Origin: Echinicola rosea | GTDB taxonomy: Bacteria > Bacteroidota > Bacteroidia > Cytophagales > Cyclobacteriaceae | Direction of reading: 5' to 3' | DNA length: 64,000 bases | NCBI RefSeq assembly: GCF_005281475.1 | Contig: NZ_CP040106.1 | Location: forward strand, 5,508,001-5,572,000 | Shown here: positions 36,289 to 64,000 of the stretch, one piece after another | How positions within the stretch are numbered: the first letter of the stretch is position 1 | How the letters are laid out: every line of letters begins with the position of its first letter | The notes under the pieces: generated by a model | Databases searched by the model: none | The model's input: the letters and a program-made list of their open reading frames with translations, nothing else | What the model was told of the DNA's origin: nothing | Made by a program: the position numbers and the translations under genes

Positions 36289-36295
36289 TGTTAAC

Positions 36296-42934: not shown

Positions 42935-45511
42935 TTAATGATGGTAATCTTTTATTTTCAAGGTCCTCACCCCAAAACGGGGTATGGACAATCGGATCTT
43001 TCTCGGCGATTTGCCGGATACCTCGAGGACCTCTGCGTTCTCTCCATTGAGCGTTACGAATTCTGCGCGCTTAAAGCTCCCATCCACCAAGACCGTTGAT
43101 TGTCCAGCAGTTCCTTCTGCGTTGAACAATCGCACCAGCAAATCCTTTCCTGCAAAATGGGCAGTGGTAATTTGCCAGCCTTCTTCTTCCAGCTCCAACA
43201 GGGATTGATGGGCCACATCTCCTGTTGAGGTGGTTGTTAGTTGGGCCTTAAGGGGCTCATCCCATCTGGCGTTTTCCATCCAGATCCCTGCTTCATCCCA
43301 TTTTTCCCGATGGGGCACCAGGGCATATTTGACATGGGTAGGTCCCTCGATTTTATAATTCATGCCCCAAAGTGCCCTGCCTGAATATTGGATATTTAGG
43401 GCCAAAGGGTGGTCTTTGCCATGTGCATAACTGGTCGTATGATCAGAAAACAGGGCTACGCCAAGGTTTTCCGTTTCATCCATTACATCCACCCAGTTCA
43501 GGATAATATTGTTTTTTATGCTGTCCCACCGGGTAAAAAAGGTAGATTCCAATTCACTTCTTGTCACATCAAATGGCGCATTTTTAAATACCTTCTGCTG
43601 ATCCAAGGCCAATGGAAAATGCACCAAAAGCTTATAGGCATCATTGTAAAAAGCTTTTTTGGGATCTACGGCTTTATAATTTTCCATCTGGGAATATTCC
43701 CCTATTCCTGGGCTCCCCTGCCAGTCTATGGTCACTTCAAAATCTATCTTTCTCTCTCCCTGATAAAAACTTATCAACTGTTCAAAAGGATGCTTTCCTA
43801 TATGCCCCTTGACAGAAACAGCGGTCATCAAGGGCCCGTTCACTACGATTTCCACCTTGGCAGGGCTTTCAGTGCTTGAAAGAAACTTGCCCAAATCATA
43901 AAAATAACCTCTCAGCTCATTGAAAGCCCTATCATCCCCCTTGTCCACCAACTCTTTACCTCTCAGCTTTTTTGCTTTTAAACTCTCGATAACTCCTCCT
44001 TTGGCCGGATTGATGATTACTTCATAATAATCTGTATCGACCTGCACTTTTCCATCTGGCATCTTTAGGGCCCTGGTTTCATTTCCCTTTGGTACATTGG
44101 CCTGTTCCAGGCGAAAACTGCTCAAGCCCAATGGCCCCGCCTTTGCCCTAAACAACAATTGCTGCCGTCCATCTATATAGGCCAATTGACTTGGTATTTG
44201 CTGGCCCTTTATATCCATTACCTTCCAATTTCCTTGCTTTAAGCCTTCGGCATCCACTTTGATCAGTTCTTCCCTTGCGGTCCCTTGGCCGTTGAAGACA
44301 TTTATGGATAAAGGGGCTTCTATTTCAGTGGCTTTCCCACCCAGGATACCATCTATGGCCTCCGCACTGATCTCATTGGCAATGCCGGTCCAATCCACCA
44401 CTTTATCGGCCCATGTTTTATTACCTTCCACCCTGTTATAGGGGACTATCCAACAATCATGGTGCTGGGCAAGGGCAAGGTTTCTCCATCCCTCGTCAAA
44501 CTTTTCCGCAGACCATGTTCCGCCAGAATAGGCCTTGGCATAAGCCGCCATTTTTTCCGCCAAGGTAATATTGTTCTCTGCCACCCTTACATTTTGGGCC
44601 AACTGCTGCATCACTTGGGAGCCCCAAACCAGGCTGACCAGAACATCTTCTTGGCTAAAGTCCCAAACATCTTCAGCCTCGGATATTGCAATATTTTCAA
44701 AGTAATTGGTCCAAGTAACATAATGGGAGGGCTGATAAAGGGGCTTATCAGCTCCCAGCCAGGGACCGCCCTTCCAAGCTGCATCCTGCAGGCACATTCC
44801 TACCGGATGTGGGATACCCTGCTCCAAAGCAGCTTGTATATAGGACTCCCCATTGCCCCATGCCCTGGTCTGCCACGTGGAATTGGGCTCTAAAGCTTCG
44901 CTCTCATACCTGGGCACGGTTTTGATAAAAGAGCCATCAGGTCCTTGCCAATTGACCAGTTCCCCTCCATGTGCGCGGGTATAGCCGCCCCAACAAGTGT
45001 TTGGATTTTTCAGCACGGCATATTTAAACCCAAAGGACTTTAGAATCTGTGGCAAAGCGCTCGTAAAGCAGGGCTCTTCCGAAGAATAAGTAGTGTAGGA
45101 CATTTCAGGAAAATGTTTCCGCATATGGCGGATACCAAGGTCGAATTGTCTTATAATGGACTCTCCGGAAATATTAAAGAGGTAAGCCTGCCCATAAGAC
45201 GGGTTGACAATATCTATTCTTTCGGCAAATCCTGGCTTTACCATGGCATTTTGGAAAGCCTTATAAGCTTTGGGGTCATAAACTTTTACCGAATCCCATG
45301 TTTCCGGTTCAATTTCTAGATTGATCTTCCAATTGGGATGTTGCGAAAGTTGGTCGACCATAAACTGGGTTTGCCACCTTGGATAATGACCGTATACCCC
45401 TCCATGGTATCCGTCCACAAAATAGGCGTCTTGGGCTTTGGTAACGTTAGTGGTGACAATTAAAACCGTAAAAACGCTGATTACTGCACTATGGATTATT
45501 CTTGGTTTCAT
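42935..45511 (-). CDS. GH38-like alpha-mannosidase, atypical active site
   Basis: An 858-residue secreted protein (signal peptide to VTKAQ) with the layout of GH38: an N-terminal metal-binding segment YFVDGYHGGVYGHYP (His36, His42), an acidic motif followed by LKSFGFKYAV as in GH38 (TYSSEEPCFTS, Glu145-Glu146), LAQHHDCWIVPYN (His350, His351, Asp352, cf. the GH38 QHHD motif) and a long beta-rich C-terminal half. The usual HxHxDPGW and DPFG motifs are replaced, so the nucleophile may be Glu rather than Asp. First gene of block C, with two operator-like sites upstream. Probably removes alpha-mannose from the same glycan as the GH92 enzymes. Confidence 0.82.
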   Translation of the reverse strand: MKPRIIHSAVISVFTVLIVTTNVTKAQDAYFVDGYHGGVYGHYPRWQTQFMVDQLSQHPNWKINLEIEPETWDSVKVYDPKAYKAFQNAMVKPGFAERIDIVNPSYGQAYLFNISGESIIRQFDLGIRHMRKHFPEMSYTTYSSEEPCFTSALPQILKSFGFKYAVLKNPNTCWGGYTRAHGGELVNWQGPDGSFIKTVPRYESEALEPNSTWQTRAWGNGESYIQAALEQGIPHPVGMCLQDAAWKGGPWLGADKPLYQPSHYVTWTNYFENIAISEAEDVWDFSQEDVLVSLVWGSQVMQQLAQNVRVAENNITLAEKMAAYAKAYSGGTWSAEKFDEGWRNLALAQHHDCWIVPYNRVEGNKTWADKVVDWTGIANEISAEAIDGILGGKATEIEAPLSINVFNGQGTAREELIKVDAEGLKQGNWKVMDIKGQQIPSQLAYIDGRQQLLFRAKAGPLGLSSFRLEQANVPKGNETRALKMPDGKVQVDTDYYEVIINPAKGGVIESLKAKKLRGKELVDKGDDRAFNELRGYFYDLGKFLSSTESPAKVEIVVNGPLMTAVSVKGHIGKHPFEQLISFYQGERKIDFEVTIDWQGSPGIGEYSQMENYKAVDPKKAFYNDAYKLLVHFPLALDQQKVFKNAPFDVTRSELESTFFTRWDSIKNNIILNWVDVMDETENLGVALFSDHTTSYAHGKDHPLALNIQYSGRALWGMNYKIEGPTHVKYALVPHREKWDEAGIWMENARWDEPLKAQLTTTSTGDVAHQSLLELEEEGWQITTAHFAGKDLLVRLFNAEGTAGQSTVLVDGSFKRAEFVTLNGENAEVLEVSGKSPRKIRLSIPRFGVRTLKIKDYHH

Positions 45512-45626
45512 TGGGTAAATTATTAATTCAATCCCTCCTTTACATCTTATATATGATGTGCACAGGATGAATAGCTATAACATATTCTATTTTTGCTTGA
45601 AAAGTAATAAAATAAAAATCAATTTG

Positions 45627-45640
45627 CTAAATCGATTAAC
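45627..45640 (-). promoter_or_regulatory. Putative LacI-family operator, upstream of block C (proximal)
   Basis: Minus strand TTAATCGATTTAGC, 116 bp upstream of the GH38-like start. Same CG-centred pseudo-palindrome as the other five sites. Confidence 0.5.
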
Positions 45641-45941
45641 TAATTTTTGTCAAAGAATATAAAAGTACAGTTTAAATATTAGGCCTACAGGGCATTCTAT
45701 GAAATACATACGGGTCAATAATATTGTTTACATAAAATGAAAAGTTCAATTTTTCCAAACCTTGCCAACAAGTAAACCTACCGGTCACATAATTGATCTT
45801 AAATAGTTTATTCCATGCTAGTGGTTTTAATAGCAGGAAATAAAATCTTATTGATTTAGGATCTTTATCGATTTTTGAAATATATCCTAGAAGGCACTCC
45901 AATCCCGGACCAACCAATACTAGGTGGGGGTAAAAGTAAAG

Positions 45942-45955
45942 TTTAACGTTTTAGC
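45942..45955 (+). promoter_or_regulatory. Putative LacI-family operator, upstream of block C (distal)
   Basis: TTTAACGTTTTAGC, 13 of 14 identical to the site at 17009-17022 and about 315 bp from the proximal block C site. Confidence 0.5.
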
Positions 45956-46207
45956 TATGAGTATTTATTTTCGTCCGAAAACGTATAAACTCTTTTCAAT
46001 CATGTACCTAAGGACGACTCGAATAGGAGGAAACAAATACCGTTAGGACTTCCTTAATGTTTAAACATTTCCTGTTGGCGTCATGCCTTTTACATTGTTC
46101 CACCCCACTCTCCTTTTCCCATGGACTAAAAATAAAATGATAACAATTTGGCCAAAAGCCCCTTCTGTCGAAATTATACGTATTGATAGTTATTGCTAGA
46201 TACGAAT

Positions 46208-48340
46208 TTATCTTACATATTTTAATAGATTTTGAATCTTAAGATACTCCCTAATATATTTGAAAGGAAAGGGTAAAACTGTTAACCCCTCATGTTTAAC
46301 AAAGTCAACATTCATCGTTTCAATTAACTCGTCAAAAAGAATGGGGGCATTTTCAATTGGAACAGCCCTTCTTATATTACAATAGTTTTTAAACGATGCT
46401 TTGATACCCTTACTTTTATCGCCAACAAAGTATTCCACACCTTCACCATTTGTTCTGTACACAATGTCAATATTGGAATTGAATAGCTCGTATTTTTTTT
46501 TCTTACCACGAAGGAAATTCCTTAAAATAATACCCTTCTCCTCAAATAGAAGTTCATTAAGGAGTTCTTTCGCAAGATTCGGTTTTTTAAACTTCAACCC
46601 CAACGCATTCTTGCGATTTATGACATTCGTAGGTAAAATGTTCAATTGATTGATAATGTCATCATGAACTTCGGAAGATTCAGATTTTTTCCATCGGCTA
46701 ATTATACTTATCAATTCATCCTTATCCAATTCAAAATCTTCCGTTTCTTTTTCCAAAGCATTGCCAACCTTTTTGAAAGCTGGTAATGCCCTAAGATTTG
46801 TTGTGCCTATCAAATTAATGAAACCGTCTTTTGTCTTTATTAAACCTTCAGGTTTGAAGTTTCCTTTTGAATAGAGTGGTTCGAAGTACTTCTTGAATTG
46901 ATCGTATTTTGAAGAAGAAAATAGGTCACTTAAGTCCAATACCTCAAATTCTAAATTCCCATTTGGACAAATTTTAAGAAAACCTATCCGGTCAACATCC
47001 TTTGTATCATCTTTCCATGCAAACATCCAATCCTTCTTGTACTGATTTGATCCCCAATCTGTAACCGTAATATTGTTGTTTAGAACATCATCTTTGATTA
47101 CGATTTCTTTAAGTATGTTTTTTACTGCTGCTAAAGCTGTTTTGTTCTGTTTTTCAAGTTTCTTCCTAGTAGAACTCTCACATGCACTTATTTCCTTATT
47201 TAGGTAAAATTCGAATTTATTTGAAAAGTCCTCAAAAGTAATGTGGTGGACAGCTATTCTTTTTGAAAATAATTTACCTGCTTCCAAGTATTGATCAACG
47301 TCACCTTCCTGATTCTCCTTGTTATTAATTAGTCTTATGCAAAAATCACCTTCTCTTGGTTTGGTATTTATTCTTATTGAAATCTCTAGCTGTTCTTTTA
47401 GGAATTCACTGAATCTCTTGCTGAAATTAACAGAATCATTATTTGAAATATTATCAATTAAAATGGTCTTTTTCTCTTGAAATAACTGATTTAGCCTTTC
47501 TTCCTTAAATTCTGAATTAGCCTGCTTAAACCCGGACCATTGAGCATTGTCCCAAGACTCAAATTGAATATCAATATAGTTTTTTAAATCAGTTTCTATT
47601 TTTGATAATAAGTGATACCATGCTCCTGCCTTTGAACGCAGAAATTTATCCCAAGAGCTGAAATCAATTAAAGGAATAACTGTTTTTTTTGCTCCCTTTA
47701 CCTGTCTCATGATGAAAATATCTTCATCATTTTGTTTTTCATTCGGGAGTTTCCTCTTTAAGGTATAATTGGAACTGTTAAAATAATATCGGGGTAATTC
47801 ATGAAAACGTTTCTCCGTAATAGTCATCCATTTCCTGTTGGATATTGAGGTAAAGGTTACCACGGATTCTTGTAGGGTAAAGTCTTTTGTTACCTTAAAC
47901 TGTATTGTTGGTATTTGCCAAATTGTTTTACCTTTTTTCTTGAACCAACTTGGGTGAGAGTAATAGAACTTTCCTGAGAGGTTGTTAAAGCTAAAGAACT
48001 TAGACTTGTTGCTTGAAAGGCTATTGATTAGCAGTTGGGCCAGGTAATGTGGTTCTATACTTTCAGGGGAAATAACCTCGGCACTTAAAGAATCATGCCT
48101 ACTGACAATTTGCTCAACAATGATAACAGCCTCATCCTCACTAACGCTTAACATAGTATAAAACGATGGTTCATTTTCGTGAACAATTGATTTAACTACA
48201 GGTTGTTTTACCAAAGCATCTAAGTATAGAGCATTCCAGTATTTTTTCTCACTCGATTTTATTCTAATGAAACTAAATGATCCATTGATTTCATCAAAAT
48301 GAAAATTGACCTTAATCTTATTTGTAGCTACTCTATGCAT
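46208..48340 (-). CDS. Unrecognised 710-residue partner of the helicase-nuclease; possibly PIWI-like
   Basis: I do not recognise this protein with confidence. Its ATG at 48340 overlaps the helicase stop by eight bases (ATGCATAG), so the two are translationally coupled; the frame stays open to 48400 but that would add 20 residues inside the helicase gene. It has no signal peptide or membrane segment and is lysine-rich. The N-terminal half is beta-rich (NLSGKFYYSHPSW, ESVVTFTSISNRKW, YYFNSSNYTLKRKL), a middle segment reads IPLIDFSSWDKFLRSKAG, and the C-terminus is ENAPILFDELIE then LTVLPFPFKYIREYL. The order and the C-terminal proline-rich ending remind me of inactive Argonaute/PIWI or pPIWI-RE proteins, which also pair with a helicase and a PD-(D/E)XK nuclease; this is a weak hypothesis. 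Base composition is far more AT-rich than the flanking glycan or tra genes. Confidence 0.85.
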   Translation of the reverse strand: MHRVATNKIKVNFHFDEINGSFSFIRIKSSEKKYWNALYLDALVKQPVVKSIVHENEPSFYTMLSVSEDEAVIIVEQIVSRHDSLSAEVISPESIEPHYLAQLLINSLSSNKSKFFSFNNLSGKFYYSHPSWFKKKGKTIWQIPTIQFKVTKDFTLQESVVTFTSISNRKWMTITEKRFHELPRYYFNSSNYTLKRKLPNEKQNDEDIFIMRQVKGAKKTVIPLIDFSSWDKFLRSKAGAWYHLLSKIETDLKNYIDIQFESWDNAQWSGFKQANSEFKEERLNQLFQEKKTILIDNISNNDSVNFSKRFSEFLKEQLEISIRINTKPREGDFCIRLINNKENQEGDVDQYLEAGKLFSKRIAVHHITFEDFSNKFEFYLNKEISACESSTRKKLEKQNKTALAAVKNILKEIVIKDDVLNNNITVTDWGSNQYKKDWMFAWKDDTKDVDRIGFLKICPNGNLEFEVLDLSDLFSSSKYDQFKKYFEPLYSKGNFKPEGLIKTKDGFINLIGTTNLRALPAFKKVGNALEKETEDFELDKDELISIISRWKKSESSEVHDDIINQLNILPTNVINRKNALGLKFKKPNLAKELLNELLFEEKGIILRNFLRGKKKKYELFNSNIDIVYRTNGEGVEYFVGDKSKGIKASFKNYCNIRRAVPIENAPILFDELIETMNVDFVKHEGLTVLPFPFKYIREYLKIQNLLKYVR

Positions 48341-51300
48341 TGATTGTTTTGTTAATAAAGTAAAACGCCTCAGAAATAGGATTACTAGATTCCAAATCAA
48401 ATATTGCTGGTATTTCTATGATTTTATCATGGAAAGACTGCCTGAAAACTGGTTTTTTATTTGAAGCTATATTTATAATGAGTACTTTTTTGGCTCCAGT
48501 CCTATGCATTTTTTTACCTATATGATTTAAAATTTCATCTCGATCATTCCTTTCAAAAGCATCATTCCAAAGCTTAAAATCTATATAAATATCATTTAAT
48601 GCTTTTGCATCAAATTGTTCTAATTCATCACCAGCTAGCCTTTCCAAGTTTGCATTTGGACAATACCGTCTTATCAGATGCCAGCCAATAACTTCGCCCA
48701 ATGCCCCTTTGTAAATATTATTGTATAGAACAGGAGTCATAATATATTTGCCTATTCTAAAATCAGTAGCAAATCCTTCTTTTACAAAAAGCTCCTTTAT
48801 TTCCTTATTTCTCATAAATGATGGTAGATTACAATTGGCAGGAGAGATACTAGCCGTTTCAGTATTTGTAAATTCAATCTTTACATTTTTGTAATCTTGT
48901 TTTTGGGTATAATTTATATGCTTACGATCGGTAGGCAGTTCTACGTAATAATCTTTAAGATTTACATGAACCGCATCATTTTCATCAAAGGTTGGATAGG
49001 ATAATACTAAACGACGAAGTTTATTCCAGTTCGCATTTCGTTGTTCGTTAAATATGTATCTTATTTGTTGATGAATAAAATTATAAGCTCTCTGGTTGTT
49101 ATATTCTCCTATTCCTTTTAACTCTGAGGTATTGTCAGCTTCTAAAGAGCCATTACTTGCTTTTTTTACTAATTCCTCAAACTCCCTTGTTAGAAGCTTA
49201 TTGGATAGATCACTTTGTTGCAGATAAGGAATATTTTCAGCACTACTGAAAATATGAATATAAGGATTCTTTTGATTACAACGCGCCATCCTTCCAATTG
49301 CCTGATTTAAAATTCGTGTGGCATTGTTTGATATATCAGAAAGGCTATAAAGGTTATTCTCTGATTTATCATAAAAAGGATGTGCTATGTATTCAGCGCC
49401 AGATAATTTTGTAAATCCTTTTTTTATTTCATGCTTTAATTGATCATTACTTACCTGACCTTTTTGGGCGAGTGATTCCAATTGAAATATGCGTTCAACT
49501 ATATGGGTCTCTTTAACTTTTCTACTGTTTACATTAACAATTAGGTGGGTTGGTTTGTCTATATAAATGGCATCAAAGTCTTTTTCGTTTTCTTTATTAT
49601 CAAAATCATTGATTTTCACAAGTTTTGAATCCTCAGGAGCCATATATTGAAGGTTTTGGCCAGCTCCCACCGTTCTGTATGTTGAAATAACAAAAAGTTT
49701 AAATCCGTGGCTTAAGGTAGATTGGATATAAGCTTTCTTGTAATCAAAATCAGAACTATCAACTACATAGATGGAATTTGCAGGATTACCTGATTTGTAA
49801 TCCTCTTTATTACCAAATAGGTCTATGATATTTTGTGCATATTTTTCAAAAAGGTCAATCCTAAAATCTGTTTTTTTATTGTCAGGAAGGGCCATTCCCA
49901 AAGCCAAAAAGGATTTAATATTTTTATTCAAAACAAACTCTTTAAATACTTTGAAGTACCGAACATATCTGTCAATCACATGATCCTTGGGACTGCCTTT
50001 TTGAATTTCGCACAAATAATAGTCTGCCAATTCATTTTCCTGACCAAAAATTTTCAATAACTCAGTTTTATGATTTTTGACATCAATGAAATCAACATTA
50101 ATCTGCACCTGAGAGTAACCTTTTGTATTAGTCCTGTATTCTTTTTCAATATCTATCAACTCGGAATTTTCCATTTCTCGATAACCTTCACCTAATCGCT
50201 TTCTAAGGAAATTGAGGTCGTAATTCCCCACTACAGTTTGGCAATCCGCTGTAGCCGATATGGCAATTATATTTGCTTTTCTGGCAACATTCAACAGGAA
50301 TTTTTCAGGTGTATTTTCGTACTGGTACTGATAAATTTTAGACTTTAAATCGTGGTCATCACTATCAAAAAAATCATAGTACCTAAAACCATTCATATAA
50401 AAATTTAAATCTACTATATCATCTTGTTTATTGGCTTTTATGAAATTCCCCTCATTACTAAGTATGGAGTCAATAAGGTACTTCCTCCAATCATCAGGTA
50501 AGTTAAATAAGTCCAATGTTGTATGAAGTGCACTTTCTATTGGAAATTCATCCTTGTTAGAACTATATTGTTTCTTTAGCTCTTGATAATTAGAGGCTAT
50601 ATAGAAAATTCCCTTTCGAAAATATTGAAGGAAACCTTTCAATTGATTAATTAATCCCAAGACATTCCCATTTTGACCGATAGATTCTTTTTGAAAGTGA
50701 ATTTCATTAATTAATCTTTCTTCAGAAAAAGTAAGTCTCACAAAATTTTTTCCTTCGCTTAAGATCGTATGAAATTCATCATCTTGGAATAGGAAGCTCC
50801 TAACTCTATCTGGGTTAACCGTTTTAAATGGAACAGTGATATTATACTGCTCATTGATTTGGTTCACTTTATGGGAGAAAGAATCAAAAATATCAGCTAT
50901 TTTGGGTACACTTATATTTTTATCCCTTAACGCAATTCTTTCATTTGATTCCTGAACTATATCCTGTGGTACCTGTAAGGTGGACAAACTTGAATATAAA
51001 TGTGTAAAGAGCCCTAATAAATCTACTTTTTTAGAATATCCATTTTCAATAATCTGATTAAGTACATGCGATTTGGTAGCATCAAATTCATCAATGAATA
51101 TTATAGCGTCTTCTGTAATTTTATCTTCCCAGAAATAATACGATGGCCTCACAAGTGTGGTGTTCTTTAAAAAGAATTTATCCACACTTAAGAAAAATAT
51201 TCGTTTTTTGGAGGATAAAATAGCAGGATAAAGCTCAACTAACCAAGGATGATTTTTTTGTATGTAAATGATTTTTATTGATTCTGTTAAATCTTTTTTA

Positions 51301-51788
51301 TTGGCTTTTTTCAACTCATCATCTAACCAATCTGTAATGCCCCTGCGAAATTTTGGCTCATGAGTTTTACGAATATCGTCCTTGGCTTTTTCAATTAATT
51401 GTTTTGTAAAAGCATCTTTGGTTTTTTGCTCATCAAATCCTTGAACTAAGGAAACACAATTGTGTAAAGCCTTATATTCAGGCATGTCAGTAATAAATTT
51501 AGGACAGTTGGTTTTTAAAAGAGTCCCTATAATTGTATCTGCATTTGAATCCAGAGCAATAAAATGTTTCCCAAAATCCGTCTTTTTACCACACTGCCTA
51601 AACTTATTTTTCAGCTCCTGAACGGGTAAGTTTTTCTTGAGATTGGTAATAAAGAAAATCTTACGGTTTTCCTTATATTTTTTTAAAATGTACTCTAAAA
51701 CATGATAGGTTTTACCAATTCCTGTAGGTAACGGAAAAATGAAAAGCCCATTTTTATATTCGCAATATTTGTTCAGTATTTTCTGCAT
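48333..51788 (-). CDS. SF2 helicase with C-terminal PD-(D/E)XK-like nuclease domain
   Basis: A 1151-residue cytoplasmic protein. Helicase motifs in order: Walker A PLPTGIGKT (residues 21-27), motif II IFIDEFDAT (Asp233, Glu234), motif III ISATAD (511-513), motif V YRTVGAGQNLQY, motif VI QAIGRMARCNQ (829-836). Near the C-terminus a restriction-endonuclease-like core follows: GALGEVIGWHLIRRY (Glu1032), QFDAKALNDIYIDFKLW (Asp1060, Asp1070, Lys1072) and KKVLIINIAS as the last strand. No Cas3 HD domain, DNA methylase or CRISPR array is nearby. It is the first gene of a two-gene operon. Strong AT bias suggests horizontal acquisition. Helicase assignment is firm; nuclease is likely; a phage-defence role is inferred. 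Confidence 0.88.
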   Translation of the reverse strand: MQKILNKYCEYKNGLFIFPLPTGIGKTYHVLEYILKKYKENRKIFFITNLKKNLPVQELKNKFRQCGKKTDFGKHFIALDSNADTIIGTLLKTNCPKFITDMPEYKALHNCVSLVQGFDEQKTKDAFTKQLIEKAKDDIRKTHEPKFRRGITDWLDDELKKANKKDLTESIKIIYIQKNHPWLVELYPAILSSKKRIFFLSVDKFFLKNTTLVRPSYYFWEDKITEDAIIFIDEFDATKSHVLNQIIENGYSKKVDLLGLFTHLYSSLSTLQVPQDIVQESNERIALRDKNISVPKIADIFDSFSHKVNQINEQYNITVPFKTVNPDRVRSFLFQDDEFHTILSEGKNFVRLTFSEERLINEIHFQKESIGQNGNVLGLINQLKGFLQYFRKGIFYIASNYQELKKQYSSNKDEFPIESALHTTLDLFNLPDDWRKYLIDSILSNEGNFIKANKQDDIVDLNFYMNGFRYYDFFDSDDHDLKSKIYQYQYENTPEKFLLNVARKANIIAISATADCQTVVGNYDLNFLRKRLGEGYREMENSELIDIEKEYRTNTKGYSQVQINVDFIDVKNHKTELLKIFGQENELADYYLCEIQKGSPKDHVIDRYVRYFKVFKEFVLNKNIKSFLALGMALPDNKKTDFRIDLFEKYAQNIIDLFGNKEDYKSGNPANSIYVVDSSDFDYKKAYIQSTLSHGFKLFVISTYRTVGAGQNLQYMAPEDSKLVKINDFDNKENEKDFDAIYIDKPTHLIVNVNSRKVKETHIVERIFQLESLAQKGQVSNDQLKHEIKKGFTKLSGAEYIAHPFYDKSENNLYSLSDISNNATRILNQAIGRMARCNQKNPYIHIFSSAENIPYLQQSDLSNKLLTREFEELVKKASNGSLEADNTSELKGIGEYNNQRAYNFIHQQIRYIFNEQRNANWNKLRRLVLSYPTFDENDAVHVNLKDYYVELPTDRKHINYTQKQDYKNVKIEFTNTETASISPANCNLPSFMRNKEIKELFVKEGFATDFRIGKYIMTPVLYNNIYKGALGEVIGWHLIRRYCPNANLERLAGDELEQFDAKALNDIYIDFKLWNDAFERNDRDEILNHIGKKMHRTGAKKVLIINIASNKKPVFRQSFHDKIIEIPAIFDLESSNPISEAFYFINKTINA

Positions 51789-52072
51789 TATTTATTTGAA
51801 TTTCCATTTAAAGAAATATAATCTGGATGTGAAAATGTTAAATCAGTTGATTTCCGATTATTAACCACAAAACGGTCATTAAATTTTGAAGACATATTTG
51901 TAAATGATCTGACCTATTTTGAGTATAAAATGATTTTTTGGTAAAGTAATAAACTTTTATATCACAGTATAAAATTTGACAGAAATTGTCGCAAAAGTGT
52001 AATAACTCATTTTCATTTAGCAGACCTAGCCAATTCTATAAAATAGATATCATACTCATTTTGAAATAATGA
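51789..52072. other. AT-rich leader region of the helicase operon
   Basis: About 284 bp, very AT-rich. It must hold the helicase promoter, but no exact TAnnTTTG was found at a suitable position. It ends at the second RadC block. Confidence 0.5.
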
Positions 52073-52721
52073 ATAAAAAAAGGCCCTAAAGCCCTCCCAT
52101 ATCAGCAAATGAATAGTACCCTTCTGCGGTCAATATGATATGGTCCATAACCGGCAAATCCAACAATTTACCAGCCTTGACCATTTTCTCGGTAAGGCGG
52201 TTGTCCTGGTCACTGGGGCGAAGGGTTCCGGAAGGATGGTTGTGGGCAAGGATGATTCCCGATGCCGACGCCTTCATGGCCGCTGCAAAGATCACTTTCA
52301 GGTCCACCACGGTACCGCAGGTTCCACCGGACGAGGCGTTGACAATGCCCAGCACACGGTTTGCCCTGTTGAGCAATATCACCTTGAACTCTTCGATGAA
52401 TTCCAATTTGGATTCGTCCCAATTGGCCCTGAGCACTTTGGCTGCACTTTGGGAGGAAACAATCTGCGGCTTATCTGACATCTTGGAATTGGGGCGGTAG
52501 CTTAAGGTAATTTCGGCTACTTGGCTGAGAACGGTGTTGTTGTTGCTTTCCATAACATTTCATGTTTAAGGTTAGAAATTAATTATGGAAGCCCTACAGC
52601 TAGAGGGCAAACAAGGCCAAGTGGCAACGGAATAAAGGAGGGCACGGCGGGAAGTCCTGTGTTTATGCCGTAAGCTCATGGCCGCCCCTGCAGCCCGAAA
52701 GCTAACTTTGTGGAGTGATTA
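52073..52721 (-). repeat. Direct repeat copy 2 (RadC block, about 650 bp)
   Basis: Same orientation and nearly the same sequence as 10712-11359, including about 165 bp upstream of the gene (one extra base in the leader at CATGTTTAAGG). The two copies are 41.4 kb apart, start to start. Confidence 0.92.
52086..52553 (-). CDS. radC: RadC-like JAB/MPN-domain protein, copy 2
   Basis: A 155-residue JAB-domain protein with an intact JAMM metal site (HNHPSG, PSDQD). 151 of 155 residues equal copy 1; the differences are in the first five residues and at Leu in HPSGTLRP. It lies directly upstream, in the same orientation, of the helicase operon and about 2.8 kb from the end of the tra operon, the place where such genes usually sit in Bacteroidota conjugative elements, so copy 2 may be the ancestral position. 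Confidence 0.93.
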   Translation of the reverse strand: MESNNNTVLSQVAEITLSYRPNSKMSDKPQIVSSQSAAKVLRANWDESKLEFIEEFKVILLNRANRVLGIVNASSGGTCGTVVDLKVIFAAAMKASASGIILAHNHPSGTLRPSDQDNRLTEKMVKAGKLLDLPVMDHIILTAEGYYSFADMGGL

Positions 52722-52953
52722 AGGATAATAAGAATAAGCGCAACCTTCATTCTAATTTTGGTATGATAATTAATCAAGATGAAATTATGGGTTATTTTTT
52801 CTGTAAGGGCCTCATCACTCATTTATCTTTTATCAGAACTAAAACCATCATTAATGTAACTCATATACATTTTAAACAACTACAAAAACAAAGGAGAGAT
52901 TAATTACTAAATTTAATGAACCTAGTATTCCTTCCATTTATAAGTTTATCGTC
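52554..52953. other. Intergenic: RadC leader block plus upstream region of the FISUMP gene
   Basis: 52554-52721 is the repeated leader. 52722-52953 is AT-rich and contains a perfect -7 element on the plus strand (TAATTTTG, 52753-52760), but without a clear -33, about 200 bp before the FISUMP lipoprotein start. The 62-codon ORF here has no support. Confidence 0.5.
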
Positions 52954-54360: not shown

Positions 54361-54408
54361 ATTTTGAGATCTTCTTACCTTTAGACCGGTTGTTTTTTCG
54401 AAGTAGTA

Positions 54409-54807: not shown

Positions 54808-54934
54808 AATTCTATTTTTCCAGAAAACAATGCCCATTTAAATCACCTATTCATCATCCAATTAGCCATTAATCCTAAACCAAAACGAGCCCCTCTTTTA
54901 AATGTTTCGTTTTTGGCATTAAGAACTGTATATT

Positions 54935-55132: not shown

Positions 55133-55155
55133 TTGTCAATTTTTATTGGGATATA

Positions 55156-55299: not shown

Positions 55300-55329
55300 C
55301 AATTTGAAAAACTAAGGTTATAGAAAAAG

Positions 55330-55362: not shown

Positions 55363-55385
55363 CATTAATTATATGTACTAAATCC

Positions 55386-56168: not shown

Positions 56169-57056
56169 TTAGTTGTTTTCAGGTTGAACATCGGTCAGGT
56201 TCCTTGTTTTCAGGATGTCCCTGCCCCTGACCTTTAGGCGAAGGTTCCTGTCCCCGTTTTTTTCATTGAGCTGTATGACCAACTGTTTTTTGTCCGAAAG
56301 GGTAAATTGTGGAAAGGCCGCTACCAGGACATTGCTCCGGTGACCAGCAATCCCTTTCCCGTCCTGCCATTCGAGCAGGAGCGGGTCAAGGAATCCTTCG
56401 CGCAGCGAGGCATGTTTGGCCTGCTTCTTATCGGTGATGGTAAAAAGAAGGCCTTCCACGCTATAGGGCAACCTGGAGCGGTTGTCCACACGGAACCTAA
56501 AGAAGAGCAATCCCTCCTTTTGGTAAATGCCTTCCAGCCTGAATTTCATCCGGTAATCCCTGGACGTCCTTCGAAGGAACGCTTCTTCTTCCATCACGGC
56601 ACCTCCTGCCCTTTCCAGCTCATCAGCCGCCAGCCTGCTGGCGGCAAGCCGTACATTTTTCCAAAACCCCAGTTCCTGACGGGCAATATTAATGGAAGAC
56701 CGTGCCAGTGATTCACCATAGCTGATCCTGAAATGGTACAGCCGGGCATCGGCGGTGACCACATGGAGGTTGGTGGGGGAAAAAGAGCGTTTTCCGGCCT
56801 TTAACAGTAACAGGTTGGGTGCTTTTTCCTCTACTTTGGCCATGACACTGCCATGTCCCCTATCTACGCTCACCACCTTCCCGGGAAAGACCAGTGCGGT
56901 GGTATGGTCCCAGCCAACATTGACCGGATAGGCCGGCAACACCGCATCTTTGGTTATGGGCCGTATTTCCAGTTGTTGCTGTGCGGACAGCGATCCTGTA
57001 TGGAGTGAAAAAAGGACCGCAAAAATTATCATGGTATTTTTCATTTGATTATGCAT
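56169..57056 (-). CDS. traN: Conjugative transposon protein TraN (DUF4138)
   Basis: 295 residues with a signal peptide (TGSLSAQ) and the TraN pattern: HTTALVFPGKVVSVDRGHGSVMAKVEEKAPNLLLLKA, then a beta-rich C-terminal half. TraN is considered a VirB9-like envelope component of the Bacteroidetes mating-pair apparatus. The ATG at 57056 overlaps the TraM stop by eight bases (ATGCATAA); an ATG at 57044 is possible. Confidence 0.88.
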   Translation of the reverse strand: MHNQMKNTMIIFAVLFSLHTGSLSAQQQLEIRPITKDAVLPAYPVNVGWDHTTALVFPGKVVSVDRGHGSVMAKVEEKAPNLLLLKAGKRSFSPTNLHVVTADARLYHFRISYGESLARSSINIARQELGFWKNVRLAASRLAADELERAGGAVMEEEAFLRRTSRDYRMKFRLEGIYQKEGLLFFRFRVDNRSRLPYSVEGLLFTITDKKQAKHASLREGFLDPLLLEWQDGKGIAGHRSNVLVAAFPQFTLSDKKQLVIQLNEKNGDRNLRLKVRGRDILKTRNLTDVQPENN

Positions 57057-58263
57057 TTTCGGTGTTGACCAATAAAATGGGATGTCCGGCCTTCAGTGTT
57101 ATTTTGATGGCCTTCTTCTTTTTCCTGAAAAGCCCCTTTGCCGCGGACACACCTGCCGAGGCAATTTGTGTTTCCAGGGTCATGCCCGAGGACATGTTGG
57201 GCAATCCGGTCACCAGGGCATCACCGGCACCCTGCTGGAGTTCTTTCCCTAGGTTTCCACTGATGGGAATGCCCGCCATGGCATCCTGGTCATAGGCTTC
57301 CAGTGACACGGGCAATATATGGTTGCCCGACCGCAGGGAGCTGACCACCAATTTTACGCGGTCCCCGTCCAGGGAGGCCCTGCCATAAACAATACTTCCC
57401 GAGGGGTATTCCATCCCGTTTACCCGCACCTTTTCCAATAGTTTCAGTTTGATCCTCCCTTCCCTTTCCAGGACGGTCTCCTCTGCAATTTCTGCTGCAA
57501 TGGCGGGCTCCACCACATGTACCACCGGGCTGTGCCCTTCCAGTCCGTAGAAGGCATTCTGTTCCTGGCCGCGGGTTTCCTTAGGATCACTTTCCTTCTT
57601 TTCAGAAAGCCATTTTGTTTCCTTCTCGACGGTAAATCGTGCTTTTTCCAACTGCTTTTCGCGTAGGCGCTCCCTTACCCGTTCAGGATGCTGGACATCC
57701 AGGATCTTTTCGAGCATGCCTTCCAGTTGCTGAATTTCGGGATCGGGACCGTTGGGCTGCATACGGTCCATCAGCCCTTCCAACTGGGCGATATCCCTTT
57801 CAAGGCCGCTGGGGATTTCTTTTTTGACCGGTGCTGGCCTATGTGGCGAGCTTTCAGGTGGTAAACCTTCCCTTGGACGCACCAACTGCCGATCGAGCTG
57901 TTCCAGTTTTTCCATCAGCTCTGTCGCGCGGTGGTCTAGGCTTCCCTTTTTGGAGAGCGGCAGGAGTTCGCCGGACTTGCCTGCCGTTGGCTGTTCCCGT
58001 TCCCTTAAATAGGGATCCATCCGTGCCATTTCCCGTTTACGCTGGTCTGCCCTGGCCTTCTTTTGGTAGAGCTCCATTTTGCCCAGTTCCCGTGTTTCCA
58101 GCTGGGGCCCGGGAAGGTCGGCCCGCAAGCCGATGGGCAATCGTTCAGCATCGTCTTTATTTCGCAATCCCTGCCCTGCCCAGGCAAATGCGAGGGCAAG
58201 GGGAAGGACGAACAATGGAAGGACCAGCAGTAGGGTCCGTTGTCTGGTGTTTGGTCTTTTCAT
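57049..58263 (-). CDS. traM: Conjugative transposon protein TraM (VirB10-like)
   Basis: 404 residues: one N-terminal membrane anchor (TLLLVLPLFVLPLALAFAW), a long charged Pro/Glu/Arg-rich and coiled region with EQLDRQL and QLEGLMDRM segments, and a C-terminal beta domain (EETVLEREGRIKLKLLEKVRVNGME, IVYGRASLDGDRVKL). This is the TraM/VirB10 layout that spans the envelope. Starts with a four-base ATGA overlap with TraL. Confidence 0.88.
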   Translation of the reverse strand: MKRPNTRQRTLLLVLPLFVLPLALAFAWAGQGLRNKDDAERLPIGLRADLPGPQLETRELGKMELYQKKARADQRKREMARMDPYLREREQPTAGKSGELLPLSKKGSLDHRATELMEKLEQLDRQLVRPREGLPPESSPHRPAPVKKEIPSGLERDIAQLEGLMDRMQPNGPDPEIQQLEGMLEKILDVQHPERVRERLREKQLEKARFTVEKETKWLSEKKESDPKETRGQEQNAFYGLEGHSPVVHVVEPAIAAEIAEETVLEREGRIKLKLLEKVRVNGMEYPSGSIVYGRASLDGDRVKLVVSSLRSGNHILPVSLEAYDQDAMAGIPISGNLGKELQQGAGDALVTGLPNMSSGMTLETQIASAGVSAAKGLFRKKKKAIKITLKAGHPILLVNTENA

Positions 58264-58559
58264 GGTTTTTCTTTGTTTGATTGGTGAAGAGTTGTATCCA
58301 TTACAGGCCTATATTCCCCCAGTGGAATATCAGGTGTGGCAGAAACGACTGCCACGTTCCCTCCGGCGGTCAGTTGTAGGACAATGGTCCCTGCCCAAAG
58401 GGCGAGTAAAAGGCCATATAGCAGGATGCGCTTCTGGTTGGAGAGCCGTCGGTCCATTTTGTCCAGGCCAAGGGCAAGCGATGTGGGTACATCCCTTATC
58501 ATTTCCAACACCTGTGGTGTTTTCACTTTTGTGCCAAGGGCAATGGGGCATTGTTTCAT
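58260..58559 (-). CDS. traL: Conjugative transposon protein TraL-like (DUF3989)
   Basis: 99 residues from the ATG at 58559, which overlaps the TraK stop by four bases; the frame opens at 58601 but that is internal to traK. One membrane helix (ILLYGLLLALWAGTIVLQL) follows a cytoplasmic segment LGLDKMDRRLSNQKR. Size, position between K and M and topology identify it; sequence similarity by eye is modest. Confidence 0.75.
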   Translation of the reverse strand: MKQCPIALGTKVKTPQVLEMIRDVPTSLALGLDKMDRRLSNQKRILLYGLLLALWAGTIVLQLTAGGNVAVVSATPDIPLGEYRPVMDTTLHQSNKEKP

Positions 58560-59173
58560 CTTTTTTCGATTTTGAGGTCCTTGTTTTCCAGTGTTTCCCA
58601 CTTCTCGATCAGCAGACCGTGCGGGTTGTTGCGGGACCGGGCCATTTCCCGGAGCACACCGGTGGTGACCAGCCTTCTGGTCAGCTTGGAAGTGGGCCTG
58701 GTGATGACCTGGGATCCATAGTACCGGAAGCGATAGGGGCTTTGCCCCATGTCCAGGGCTATGCTGTCCGTTTGGATTTCCTGGCTGATGTTGCCGGTCA
58801 CCAGCCTGTCGTAATAGCCCTGCTCCCGCAGCACCTGGTAGGCGTCCCGGACTGACCCGTCGCCAAGGTACATGGCCTCGGCGAGCCTTTGTTCGATAAG
58901 GTCATCATCCGGGGAAAGCCCAAAGAAGCGGTCATGGAAACGGATGACATGCTCCCTTGCTTCCACCTTCAGGTTGTCCCTCCTTCCATCGGCAAAAGCT
59001 TCCATTACCTTCCCGTCCAAAAGGATGTACACCCGCTCTGCGGCCTGCTGCTGGAAGCGGTAGGAAAGCAATATTGACCCAAGGGCCAGCAGTACTGCCC
59101 CGATGGACAGCACCAGGCTGAAGCGTTTCACATGCCCGAAGGCCGTTTCGATATTGGTCAGGTGTTCGAACAT
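58556..59173 (-). CDS. traK: Conjugative transposon protein TraK (VirB8-like)
   Basis: 205 residues from the ATG at 59173 (MFEHLTNIETAF is a typical TraK start; the earlier ATG at 59200 lies in traJ). One N-terminal membrane segment (FSLVLSIGAVLLALGSILL) and a periplasmic domain (REHVIRFHDRFFGLSPDDD, DAYQVLREQGYYDRLVTGNISQ, ITRPTSKLTRRLVTTG), as in the VirB8-like scaffold of the Bacteroidetes system. Confidence 0.88.
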   Translation of the reverse strand: MFEHLTNIETAFGHVKRFSLVLSIGAVLLALGSILLSYRFQQQAAERVYILLDGKVMEAFADGRRDNLKVEAREHVIRFHDRFFGLSPDDDLIEQRLAEAMYLGDGSVRDAYQVLREQGYYDRLVTGNISQEIQTDSIALDMGQSPYRFRYYGSQVITRPTSKLTRRLVTTGVLREMARSRNNPHGLLIEKWETLENKDLKIEKR

Positions 59174-59174
59174 A

Positions 59175-60215
59175 TCAGGTAAGGGTTTTGGCTGCCGCAA
59201 CGGGTGCAGAGGTCACCATGCTGCTGGTCTTGTGGAGCAGCGTGTCCCTGCCAGCCGCATGGACGATGTAGTTGGCCACCGAGGGGACGGTAAAGTAGCC
59301 GATGATGGCAATGACCAGAAAGATCAGGTAGGCCGTATCGGTGGAAGAAAAGAAGGTCTTGCCAGCATTCTCCACCTGGCCGATATCGATCAGGATCATG
59401 TTCTCCTGGATCTTCCCGATAATGGCCCCGAAGATATTGGCCACCGGAAGCCACATGTACACGTTGATATAGCGGGCTATCCAGGAGCGGAGGCTATGGG
59501 CAAAACCGTCGAATACGGAGATGCCCATCACGATCGGCCCCAATATGGAGAGCACGATCAAATAGAACACCCTGATGGTGTTGATGCACAGGGCTGCGGC
59601 CTGGTAGAGCACTTCAAGGACTTCGCTCATCCATTTTTTTATGGAGTTGGAGAAGTTGAAGGAGGCCTTTTCCATGGCAAACTTGATGTCGTTGCCCAGC
59701 CCGTCCCAAAAACCCTCTTCACTGCCCTCGGGATGGGTGTATTCATACCAGCTATCCCGGTCACCACTGCCGCTTTCCCCCACGTACATTTCCCAGTATT
59801 CGGTGGACTCCAATGCCCGTTGTTTCTCGGCAAGGAGCCTTTCGATGGCCGCATTGGATCCTTCCACCATTTTTCCGGTGGCCCCTGCCAGTGGGGAAAG
59901 TACTGCGTTCATCAAATGGAGCACGGAAGGGAAGAGCATGATGGCCATGCCCAGGGCAAAGGGGCGCAACAGCGGATAGAAGTCCACCGCCTCTGCCCGT
60001 GCGATATGTCCCCATACCCTGCTTCCGATATAAAATATTGCCGCAAACCCCGCAAGTGCCCTGCCCGCCCCGATCAGCTCGGATGCCAGCGGTACCATGT
60101 CCACATAGAGGCGGTCCAACACTTGATGGAGTCCCCCTGCCCCTCCGCTCACGCCTTGGGCATGTGTCCCTAGGGCAAGGAACACGAGCAATAATGTAGC
60201 TATTCCCCTTTTCAT
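59175..60215 (-). CDS. traJ: Conjugative transposon protein TraJ (VirB6-like)
   Basis: 346 residues, multi-pass inner-membrane protein with signal peptide (GTHAQG) and about six hydrophobic helices (LAGFAAIFYIGSRVW, LRPFALGMAIMLFP, IRVFYLIVLSILGPIVMGIS, TAYLIFLVIAIIGYFTVP). FDGFAHSLRSWIARYINVY is typical of Bacteroidetes TraJ. It overlaps the upstream VirB5-like gene by four bases. Confidence 0.9.
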   Translation of the reverse strand: MKRGIATLLLVFLALGTHAQGVSGGAGGLHQVLDRLYVDMVPLASELIGAGRALAGFAAIFYIGSRVWGHIARAEAVDFYPLLRPFALGMAIMLFPSVLHLMNAVLSPLAGATGKMVEGSNAAIERLLAEKQRALESTEYWEMYVGESGSGDRDSWYEYTHPEGSEEGFWDGLGNDIKFAMEKASFNFSNSIKKWMSEVLEVLYQAAALCINTIRVFYLIVLSILGPIVMGISVFDGFAHSLRSWIARYINVYMWLPVANIFGAIIGKIQENMILIDIGQVENAGKTFFSSTDTAYLIFLVIAIIGYFTVPSVANYIVHAAGRDTLLHKTSSMVTSAPVAAAKTLT

Positions 60216-60841
60216 GGCTGTAGGGATTTGATGGTTCCAAGATTTGCAGAAGCCTGTTTCCGCTGGCGGTTCAGTACCGCCGCTTCATTATTAAAGATGC
60301 GCACAAATACATAGCGGTCCTTTATTTCATCAAAGATCCGGTCGATGGCCGCCATCCGTTCCCTGTCGGTCATCTGCAGTTTTCCCCCGGTGACCACCAG
60401 CAGCAGCTCTTCGATGTTGCGGGCACTCATGTCCAGCAGGTTGCCGTATACCAGGACCAGGTAATCGAGCTCTTCACGGGTAAACCGACCACGGTCGAGA
60501 AACTGGCGGTAGGCCCTGCGGTATTCATCCAAAATGAGCTTTTGGTAGTTGATGGTCCCGCCCACCTTATGGTAGCGTTTCACCACCGGGCTGACCGCGG
60601 AGAGCCCGTCGATAAAGAGCTTGTGCAAAGAGAAATTGCCCGAGGCAATGTCCCTTACCGCATTATAGCCACGGCTCAAAGTCCGGTAGCCCTTGTACAT
60701 GTCGTCGAGGACCTGTTTGAACCGGTTCAGCTTTTCCACGTTGAGCAGCAGCTGGGCGGTTTCGCCGACCTGGGCCATCGCCACTTGCGGTGTACCCCAC
60801 AGACTGCCCATCAGCAATAGTATCGTCAAATAGTGTTTCAT
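60212..60841 (-). CDS. VirB5-like / TraI-type periplasmic protein, paralogue 3
   Basis: 209 residues, signal peptide (VAMAQ), otherwise all-helical. C-terminal motif MTDRERMAAIDRIFDEI ... LGTIKSLQ is shared with the two neighbouring proteins at 60838-61500 and 61896-62618. Such proteins are sometimes labelled TerB-like or tellurite-resistance proteins, but position and pattern fit a VirB5/TraI-like minor pilus or channel component. Overlaps its neighbours on both sides by four bases. Confidence 0.75.
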   Translation of the reverse strand: MKHYLTILLLMGSLWGTPQVAMAQVGETAQLLLNVEKLNRFKQVLDDMYKGYRTLSRGYNAVRDIASGNFSLHKLFIDGLSAVSPVVKRYHKVGGTINYQKLILDEYRRAYRQFLDRGRFTREELDYLVLVYGNLLDMSARNIEELLLVVTGGKLQMTDRERMAAIDRIFDEIKDRYVFVRIFNNEAAVLNRQRKQASANLGTIKSLQP

Positions 60842-61500
60842 GGTGTTTTCAATTGATGTAGTTGCCGAATGGTCCCCAAGTCCCCCGCATGCCAGGCCCG
60901 GTGCCGCAGCAATTGGTAGCTTTCCCGGTTGAATGCCCGGAGAAAACGGTCCAGTCCCTGTAGTTCCACGTATAGCCGGTCGACCAGCTCCAGGCGCTCC
61001 CCTTCGGAAAGCTCCAGTCCCGGTTGCAGCGCCACGGCCATCAGCTCGTCCAGTAGCTTGGATGCCGTTGACACCGCATTGTCGAATACCTGTCCGAAAT
61101 ACTGCTTTTCGGAAGGCTTCAACCTACCCTGGGCGGCAAACAGCTTTTTGGCCGTTTTTATCCGGCCCAGCAGGCGGAGCTGCAGGGCGATAAATTCCGG
61201 GACAACACTGTAATTTCTGACAGCAGGACTGATCCAGGCCAGGCCGCCAAAGAAATCCCCGTGCAGGTTAAGTTCCCCGTTGCGGACCATCTGGACCGTG
61301 TTCCAGCCATCGCGCATTATTCCATAGCCTTTCCGCGCATAACCGATATAGAGCTGCAGGCCGGTAACCTGTTTGGCCAGGTATTCCTTTTGGGTCTTTT
61401 TCTGCCGGAACCATTCACTGAAGGTCTGGGCATTTGCCGTGGCAGTAAACGCCAATAGCAGAACCACCAGTAGCCGGATTGTTTTCTTTTTAAATTCCAT
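60838..61500 (-). CDS. VirB5-like / TraI-type periplasmic protein, paralogue 2
   Basis: 220 residues, signal peptide (ATANAQ), helical. It shares the arrangement GMxxGxNTV then a C-terminal SEGERLELVDRLYVEL ... DLGTIRQLHQ with the flanking paralogues. Overlap of four bases with the next gene. Function by context: part of the mating apparatus. Confidence 0.75.
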   Translation of the reverse strand: MEFKKKTIRLLVVLLLAFTATANAQTFSEWFRQKKTQKEYLAKQVTGLQLYIGYARKGYGIMRDGWNTVQMVRNGELNLHGDFFGGLAWISPAVRNYSVVPEFIALQLRLLGRIKTAKKLFAAQGRLKPSEKQYFGQVFDNAVSTASKLLDELMAVALQPGLELSEGERLELVDRLYVELQGLDRFLRAFNRESYQLLRHRAWHAGDLGTIRQLHQLKTP

Positions 61501-61936
61501 ATCGTCTTGATTTTTGTTGTTCCATCGGGTTGACCATTGAAATGGCCAGTTTCCGGGAAGGGATGTCCCGGATATCCCCGGGGGACAGCCTTCTTTCCTT
61601 TATGGTCCATCCAAACCGGTCCTGGTGGCAAAGCTCCATGTGGGCAAGTCTCCAGTTCCCTTTTTCATTGGGCTCCAATTTCAGGTAGGCCGTCGTATGG
61701 GGGTGGCCTTCTCCCTGCCATTGCAGGTAGGTGCCCATCAGGATTCCCTCATTGGGATAGGTCTCCTCCCCTTTTAGATACCCTTTGATAAAGGCCCTTA
61801 TGGACGAGGTAAATTTCCCGGGATGGGCAGCCTGGCAATGGTAGGCCCCGTCATAGCCCTTGGCCTTCAGGACGGGCATCCAGCGGTGGGCCAGGTCAAG
61901 AAGCTCCCGCAGGGTTGTTATCTGTTGTCTGTTCAT
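61490..61936 (-). CDS. Unrecognised small protein within the tra operon
   Basis: 148 residues without signal peptide: a helical start (LRELLDLAHRWMPVLKAKGYD), then a mixed alpha/beta part (LMGTYLQWQGEGHPHTTAYL, GWTIKERRLSPGDIRDIPS). It overlaps both neighbours (41 and 11 bases). I do not recognise a family. Its conserved position suggests a cytoplasmic accessory to the conjugation machine. Confidence 0.7.
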   Translation of the reverse strand: MNRQQITTLRELLDLAHRWMPVLKAKGYDGAYHCQAAHPGKFTSSIRAFIKGYLKGEETYPNEGILMGTYLQWQGEGHPHTTAYLKLEPNEKGNWRLAHMELCHQDRFGWTIKERRLSPGDIRDIPSRKLAISMVNPMEQQKSRRYGI

Positions 61937-62618
61937 GGATTTCCTTTAGTGTTTTGATTGCCCCCTTGGCATGGCTGCGCTGCCGCGCGATCAACAGGTT
62001 CCGTTCATTGAAGCGCATCAGATCATTGAGGTTGAAGCGGACCTTCTTTTCTACCCGGTCGATCAGGGCAAGCCGTTCGCCGTCGTCCATTTTCAGGTTA
62101 AGGGCGCTGACCACGCCGAGCACCTGTTCGAGGTTGCGCACCGAATGGTCAAGGATGCCCAAATACACCTTTTCCATCCACCGCAGCTCTTCTGCCGAGA
62201 ACTGCCCGCTTGCGGTGATATGCTGCCAGGCCTTTTGGTATTCGCCCACCAGTCGCCCCTGCATTTCGGCAATGTCCCTGACCTTTTGGTACTGGCTTAT
62301 GGCGCTTTTCACCTTCCAGAGGCCATCGTAATAATCCCCGTACAGTTCCTTTTGCCGCTCTCCCCACCCGGCGATCTCCTCCAGCTTGAGCTTGTTCAGC
62401 GCATTTTCAAGCACCTTCTGCGCATTCTGCAGCCATATGGTGTTGTTCTGCATCCGCTGGATCTTCAGGTCGATCGCCACAATGGCCTTTTTTACCCCTT
62501 TGCGGATGATCTCCAGGATATAGGCCGGCACTGCCGCCTCCGATCGGGGCATTTGAGGAGCCCCAAAAAGCAGCAGCCCGGCCAGTATCCCGATCTTAAA
62601 TGCCTTTGGTACCCTCAT
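61896..62618 (-). CDS. Conjugal transfer protein TraI-like (VirB5-like), paralogue 1
   Basis: 240 residues with signal peptide (PRSEAA), mainly coiled helices (KIQRMQNNTIWLQNAQKVLENAL, VGEYQKAWQHITASGQFSAEEL), and the C-terminal DDGERLALIDRVEKKV ... IKTLKEIHE motif shared with two downstream paralogues. Closest to the TraI/DUF4141-type protein that follows TraG in Bacteroidetes elements. It overlaps TraG by four bases. Confidence 0.8.
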   Translation of the reverse strand: MRVPKAFKIGILAGLLLFGAPQMPRSEAAVPAYILEIIRKGVKKAIVAIDLKIQRMQNNTIWLQNAQKVLENALNKLKLEEIAGWGERQKELYGDYYDGLWKVKSAISQYQKVRDIAEMQGRLVGEYQKAWQHITASGQFSAEELRWMEKVYLGILDHSVRNLEQVLGVVSALNLKMDDGERLALIDRVEKKVRFNLNDLMRFNERNLLIARQRSHAKGAIKTLKEIHEQTTDNNPAGAS

Positions 62619-64000
62619 TCCTGCCCTCCTTTCATTTCCGCGGCCACTGCCGCAATGCCTTTTTCCAATTTCCCGCCAAAGGCTTTGGCCCTTTCCTGCA
62701 CCTTTATCTTCTCCTTTTGCTCGGTGGTATAGGCCAGGTATTCCTCGGGCGACACCTCGGTACGGTACACCTTGCTTACCGGGCCAAGGCCGATAAAGAC
62801 TTCCTTGTACTTCCTTCCCGGCTCATTGGCCCTGTTGATCGACATGATCTGCATGGTCTCCTTTTCGGTCAATCCCAACAGCTCCCGGATCCCGTCGAAC
62901 TTGTTGCGGTATTTGGACTGGTCGAGTAGGATCTTGCAGTCCGAATTGTTGATGATCGCCTGTTTGATAACGGGGCTGGAAATGATGTCCTCTACTTCCT
63001 GGGTGACCACCACCGCCTCGCCATAGAACTTCCTCACCGTTTTGAACAGGTATTTGATGTACTCGGCCATCCCCTGTTTGGCAATCGCCTTCCAGGCCTC
63101 TTCGATCAGGATTATCTTCCGCACGCCCCTGAGCTTTCGCATCTTGGAAATGAAGATCTCCATGATGATCAGCGTCACCACCGGGAACAGTATCGGGTGG
63201 TCCTTGATGTTGTCCAGCTCAAAGACGATAAAGCGCTGCTCCAGTAGGTCCAGGTTTTCCCGGGCGTTGAGCAGGTAGTCGAACTCCCCGCCCCTGTAAT
63301 AGGGCCGCAGCACGTAGAGGAAGTTGTCGATGTCAAAGTCCCGGTCCTTTACGCCCTGCGCTTCCAACTGCTGTTTGAACCCGGTTGAACAGAATTCAAA
63401 AAAGCTATCAAAGCAGGGAAAGGTATCCAGCTGGTCATAATAGCTGCCAAGGGCATTGGAGATGGCCACGTACTCGCTGCGCGTAAAGGTCTCGTCGTCC
63501 TTTTTCCAGAGGGCCAACAGCAGGATCTTGATGCTTTCCTTTTTTTCGGTGTCCAGCACCCTGCCGCCCAGGTGGAAGGGGTTGAAGCAGATGGGGCGGT
63601 CCTCTTCATAGGTAAAGTAATAACCTCCTGCCAGCTCGCAGAGCCCACGGTAGGAATGGCCCACGTCCACCAGCACCACATGGGCACCCTGGGCATGGTA
63701 GCTGCGCACCATATGGTTGGTAAAGAAGCTCTTGCCGCTGCCCGAGGGGCCTAGGATAAACTTGTTGCGGTTCGTTATCCATCCCCGCTCCATGGGCTTA
63801 TCGGAGAGGTCCACGTTGACGGGTTTTCCCGTCTGCCGGTCGGCCAGCCGCATGCCGAATGGCGATGGACTGGAGACATAGCCCGTTTCCATGTTGAAAA
63901 GGCAGCTGGCCTGCCGGCCAAAGGTCAGGAAGGTCTCCTCTATGGGAAGGGCCGCCGCATTGCCGGGGATCCCCGCCCAGAAGAGCTGCGGGGCCGAAAG
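62615..64000 (-). CDS. traG: Conjugation ATPase TraG (VirB4-like), N-terminus off the window
   Basis: At least 461 codons; the frame continues without a stop to the right edge, so the ATG at 63892 is internal. Walker A FILGPSGSGKSFFTNH (63728-63751), Walker B region KIILIEEAWKAIAKQG, and VVTQEVEDIISSPVIKQAI identify the C-terminal VirB4/TraG ATPase that energises the transfer channel. Bacteroidetes TraG proteins are about 800-850 residues, so roughly 45% is missing. First visible gene of the operon. Confidence 0.93.
   Translation of the reverse strand, partial: LSAPQLFWAGIPGNAAALPIEETFLTFGRQASCLFNMETGYVSSPSPFGMRLADRQTGKPVNVDLSDKPMERGWITNRNKFILGPSGSGKSFFTNHMVRSYHAQGAHVVLVDVGHSYRGLCELAGGYYFTYEEDRPICFNPFHLGGRVLDTEKKESIKILLLALWKKDDETFTRSEYVAISNALGSYYDQLDTFPCFDSFFEFCSTGFKQQLEAQGVKDRDFDIDNFLYVLRPYYRGGEFDYLLNARENLDLLEQRFIVFELDNIKDHPILFPVVTLIIMEIFISKMRKLRGVRKIILIEEAWKAIAKQGMAEYIKYLFKTVRKFYGEAVVVTQEVEDIISSPVIKQAIINNSDCKILLDQSKYRNKFDGIRELLGLTEKETMQIMSINRANEPGRKYKEVFIGLGPVSKVYRTEVSPEEYLAYTTEQKEKIKVQERAKAFGGKLEKGIAAVAAEMKGGQE

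Follow-up and report, generated by a model that had tools for sequence, protein, structure and literature searches.

A pair of overlapping genes in Echinicola rosea, located within a 64,000-nucleotide stretch of contig NZ_CP040106.1 (positions 5,508,001 to 5,572,000; in the following, the window), raises the question whether it represents a defence system that has escaped description, as an earlier note on this DNA proposed, or a divergent version of a described one. The first gene (51788..48333, minus strand) encodes an SF2 helicase of 1151 residues with a C-terminal PD-(D/E)XK nuclease; the second (48340..46208, same strand, ATG at 48340 and stop at 46208) encodes a partner of 710 residues, which the earlier note could not assign. 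The coordinates that it gave for both genes are exact, and the eight-base overlap, ATGCATAG (48333..48340, minus strand), in which the first gene stops and the second starts, is confirmed in the sequence. The pair is almost certainly a divergent member of the DdmDE system, the helicase-nuclease being DdmD and the long prokaryotic Argonaute-like partner DdmE, because PADLOC profiles, sequence comparison with solved structures, predicted folds and conserved adjacency all point to this assignment. An apparently unknown defence operon can thus be named and has relatives with solved structures.

The helicase motifs, previously judged complete, are conserved across an alignment of 80 rows, comprising the window protein and 79 relatives. 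Lys26 of the Walker A motif LPTGIGKT (51708..51731, minus strand) is present in 78 of the 80 sequences, the other two having gaps, and is followed by Thr27 (T in 74, S in 4); D233, E234, D236, S511, A512, Q829, A830, G832, R833 and R836 are kept in all 80, and position 513 has threonine in 76 sequences and serine in 4. The nuclease core proposed before likewise holds: E1032, D1060, D1070 and K1072, within residues 1031-1072 (48573..48698, minus strand), are each found in 79 of 80 rows, with one gap. A frame of 35 codons ending in TAATG just before ddmD was considered as a further component and dropped; it is without counterpart upstream of the operon of Carboxylicivirga sediminis, the sole relative checked. 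Rfam gave no match at gathering score in 44000-56000.

Among the PADLOC profiles, DdmD matches the helicase with an E value of 1.7e-30, and at E values up to 1 the only further match is a weak one to Cas3c, confined to residues 9-47 (E 0.0021); the partner matches DdmE alone, with only its C-terminal sixth covered. The statement that the pair resembles neither Hachiman, DISARM, Zorya and Gabija nor CRISPR Cas3 is therefore borne out. DdmD chains also rank first for the helicase, both by sequence among the solved structures and by predicted fold. The protein thus shows the DdmD fold and joins an SF2 helicase to a PD-(D/E)XK nuclease at its C-terminus. By the same two measures the partner is closest to DdmE, whose fold its predicted model adopts, as expected of a long Argonaute-like protein of prokaryotes. 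One immunoglobulin chain (E 0.0077), which also appeared when the partner sequence was searched against the PDB at E up to 10, was taken as a chance match.

The alternative, that a helicase-nuclease and an unknown partner form an undescribed system working otherwise than DdmDE, draws on the partner itself, for which Pfam contains no informative match and NCBIfam none, and which resembles characterised DdmE proteins only at low identity. Identity to characterised members is indeed only about 17-21% in structural alignments, which counts against the assignment, as do the short coverage of the partner by the DdmE profile and the relatives, given below, in which DdmE is not recognised: the window pair is ~18-21% identical to Lactobacillus casei DdmDE (PDB 9ix4, 9ixm, 9iw3) in such alignments, and in Vibrio cholerae DdmDE (PDB 8u0u, 8u3k, 9ezx, 9ezy), the DdmD sequence match begins only at residue 293, while that of DdmE is restricted to the C-terminus. 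Nevertheless, DdmD and DdmE are the best matches by sequence and by fold, and the two genes are conserved as an operon, which makes an undescribed system highly improbable. The earlier note named a search identifying the pair as a known system as what would disprove its claim of novelty, and by that standard the claim is refuted. What the earlier note had inferred about function, a defence directed against nucleic acids, is supported in kind.

A protein search with the helicase found 904 proteins among 7991 scored candidates (the top 120 being listed); the search with the partner found 9 proteins, including itself, among 7987. Among relatives in named genomes, the nearest full one is the pair of Carboxylicivirga sediminis, which shares 80% (DdmD) and 77% (DdmE) identity and the same eight-base overlap; its neighbours are a type I restriction R subunit gene and a gene for a large helicase, and an HTH/WCX regulator comes after the pair. 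The PADLOC profile misses the DdmE of this relative at an E value of 0.001. At that threshold the profile finds 16 of 59 partner sequences, a set made up of 7 obtained by protein search and 52 taken from the 70 loci with a DdmE-like gene described below, and thus misses most of the wider clade, so that surveys requiring both genes would undercount the system. From residue 255 of the partner onward, acidic residues reach at least 95% in these 59 sequences only at D349, E412, D418 and E698.

A scan of public genomes yielded 172 helicase relatives, the best 80 of which were kept as loci, and DdmE-like genes were sought over their open frames using a profile built from 7 DdmE sequences (E 0.01). 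The search for homologous pairs proved positive: in 70 of the 80 loci, a DdmE-like gene lies directly downstream of ddmD on the same strand, its start falling between 226 bp before and 99 bp after the ddmD stop and its frame overlapping that stop in 64 of the 70. The window shows this order, ddmD and then ddmE, with its 8-bp overlap. Of the remaining ten loci, L009, L032 and L045 reach a contig edge where ddmE would lie, and L038 has an open-ended frame of 185 residues downstream of ddmD that the DdmE profile left unscored. The other six (L017, L050, L052, L055, L060 and L078) contain no DdmE recognisable by the profile at E 0.01, which a very divergent DdmE could escape. The DdmD relatives at these six loci keep intact nuclease residues, and that at L050 is located between the Gabija genes GajA and GajB and a type I methyltransferase. 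At L004:11491-16133, ddmE-like sequence is found in two pieces 2.3 kb apart, as though an insertion had split it.

Protein distances within DdmD and within DdmE are correlated with r 0.94 over 63 pairs, the largest value in 2000 permutations being 0.13; this supports joint inheritance and makes no direct statement on function. Judged by record titles among the best 80 of the 172 relatives, the pair is present in the Bacteroidota, Bacillota and Cyanobacteria, in Treponema and Fibrobacter, and also in archaea, Methanoculleus and Methanosarcina among them. What is established for the window pair is that both proteins belong to the family, that the motifs of helicase and nuclease are intact, that the order of the genes is conserved and that their divergence is correlated.

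The mechanism that we infer for this pair comes from homology with the solved relatives and may proceed in the following manner: DdmE would hold a short single-stranded DNA guide and pair it with plasmid DNA; it would then recruit DdmD, otherwise autoinhibited, onto the displaced strand; and DdmD, translocating with ATP, would cut with its C-terminal nuclease, leading to loss of the plasmid. According to a review (PMC12409362), the DdmE of V. cholerae is a long pAgo that has DNA guides but no catalytic activity and recruits DdmD, whereupon the DdmD dimer separates, is loaded onto the non-target strand, translocates in the 5' to 3' direction and then cleaves; the review places this system on pathogenicity island VPI-2. 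In another paper (PMC12904381), DdmD and DdmE have their roles exchanged compared with this review. For the window pair, plasmids are the expected target and we consider it very probable that the operon serves plasmid clearance as in its relatives; guide type, recruitment, the plasmid as target, and expression and activity in this host are likewise what we infer. If active, the operon would be a candidate barrier to plasmid uptake in its host.

A pair of the same build could also have shifted its targets or guides, for example by using RNA guides, or by acting on phage DNA or on conjugative elements entering the cell in place of small plasmids. The deep divergence speaks for such a shift, as DdmD identity is 32-40% to most relatives beyond the closest clade, and so does ApsAB of E. 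coli ST38, again a helicase-nuclease with an Argonaute-like partner, which acts on plasmids with a different partner and suggests that specificity is changeable in the wider family (PMC11096173). According to the same text, ApsA and DdmD belong to one broad family, while ApsB and DdmE lack sequence similarity, and ApsA is longer, with its Walker A motif near 218-222 and its nuclease near 1420-1435 (positions as given there), versus 20-27 and 1060-1072 here. ApsB, for its part, is marked by a Y-K-QG-K motif in MID. ApsAB eliminated plasmids and was without activity against eight phages (PMC11096173), and activity data on relatives, as far as the available sources extend, all concern plasmids, so that a changed target or guide appears unlikely and plasmids are preferred.

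The surroundings of the operon are those of a mobile element on one side and a metabolic locus on the other, as noted before: RadC, DUF4138/TraN and TraM genes on the former, a GH38 mannosidase on the latter. In 1-kb bins, the GC content over 46-52 kb, where ddmDE lies, is 0.29-0.34; it reaches 0.46-0.50 at 42-45 kb and, on the other side, 0.45-0.57 at 55-64 kb; the genes are as AT-rich as claimed, and only the comparison with everything around them was slightly overstated, since the bins at 45-46 kb (0.36), 52-55 kb (0.37-0.41) and 36-37 kb (0.33) are low as well. The tra genes (56169..63892, minus strand) match TraN/DUF4138, TraM, TraJ and the TraG P-loop above the Pfam cut-off, and beyond them, past the window, RteC is accompanied by genes for a coupling protein and a relaxase and by a match to MobC that stays below its cut-off; together they identify a CTnDOT-type conjugative element. 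Between these genes and ddmD lies a radC unit (52075..52721) with a radC gene (52086-52553, minus strand; Pfam RadC E 1.2e-35), a direct repeat of 10713-11359 with 98.1% identity over 648 columns.

This position, adjoining radC and the tra region, raises the possibility that ddmDE serves the conjugative element in its replication or maintenance. In four other tra regions (those of G009, G007 and G010, and a second one of the window's genome), however, different genes adjoin radC and ddmDE is absent from that place, and the Carboxylicivirga pair has its restriction subunit and helicase gene as neighbours. Of 11 genomes of the genus, only that of the window contains DdmD; the 10 others lack it, even though related tra DNA is present in 6 of them. 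A module of this kind is therefore hardly credible. In the family, DdmD was found in 7 of 196 genomes (three near full length, four weak or partial), and in the phylum sample in 1 of 395 (E 1e-60, few candidates scored per genome). A scattered occurrence of this kind is usual for defence genes and is in keeping with the DdmDE reading. Phage records gave no match, and none of 206 pattern matches in viral contigs was confirmed as a relative; five plasmid records contained a match, one of them covering at least 80% of the query.

On whether ddmDE belongs to the element, G010 has some bearing; there, the homologue of window 1212-8592 abuts that of 51901 onward with 3 bp between. Compared with G010, 8593-51900 is an extra block, containing transposase-like frames, the first radC, the glycan-use locus and ddmDE; insertion here and loss in G010 would both give the same picture. 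Element sequence shared with G010 starts 113 bp upstream of the ddmD start codon, and this makes it less likely that ddmDE is part of the element. The glycan-use locus (11547-45545) runs collinearly with G003, to which it is 81-84% identical, apart from a few interruptions; the last match ends at 45654. A comparison of 45400-46300 with 76000-92000 found no attachment repeats of at least 12 bp; the three matches obtained for 36200-36900 (12-13 bp) and the four for 51780-52100 (11-12 bp) seem fortuitous, and without convincing repeats the ends of the conjugative element are not defined by them. A distinct Bacteroidota DdmDE clade might travel with CTnDOT-type conjugative elements, carried in blocks that are exchanged next to radC repeats, and serve the element in competing with plasmids and rival elements, a rather doubtful proposition. 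Sister elements carry other cargo in comparable places beside radC: in that of G007, an AbiEii-type gene lies between two copies of radC spaced 3 kb from each other, and in G009, whose tra region is 92-93% identical, other genes surround radC. The second tra region of the same genome (G000:C1:5098000-5117999, L124; 77-85% identity) has its own radC and adjoins a serine recombinase gene.

Tn554-type elements target radC, and in G010 (L123:7547-11713) the gene is interrupted by three consecutive tyrosine recombinase genes. The radC repeats of the window (10713-11359 and 52075-52721) flank a 41-kb block that includes the glycan-use locus and ddmDE, and radC units are also direct repeats at L122 (5394-6044 and 9049-9698). 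Beside the first radC of the window, at 9187-10488, short frames resemble pieces of transposases, as judged by eye only.
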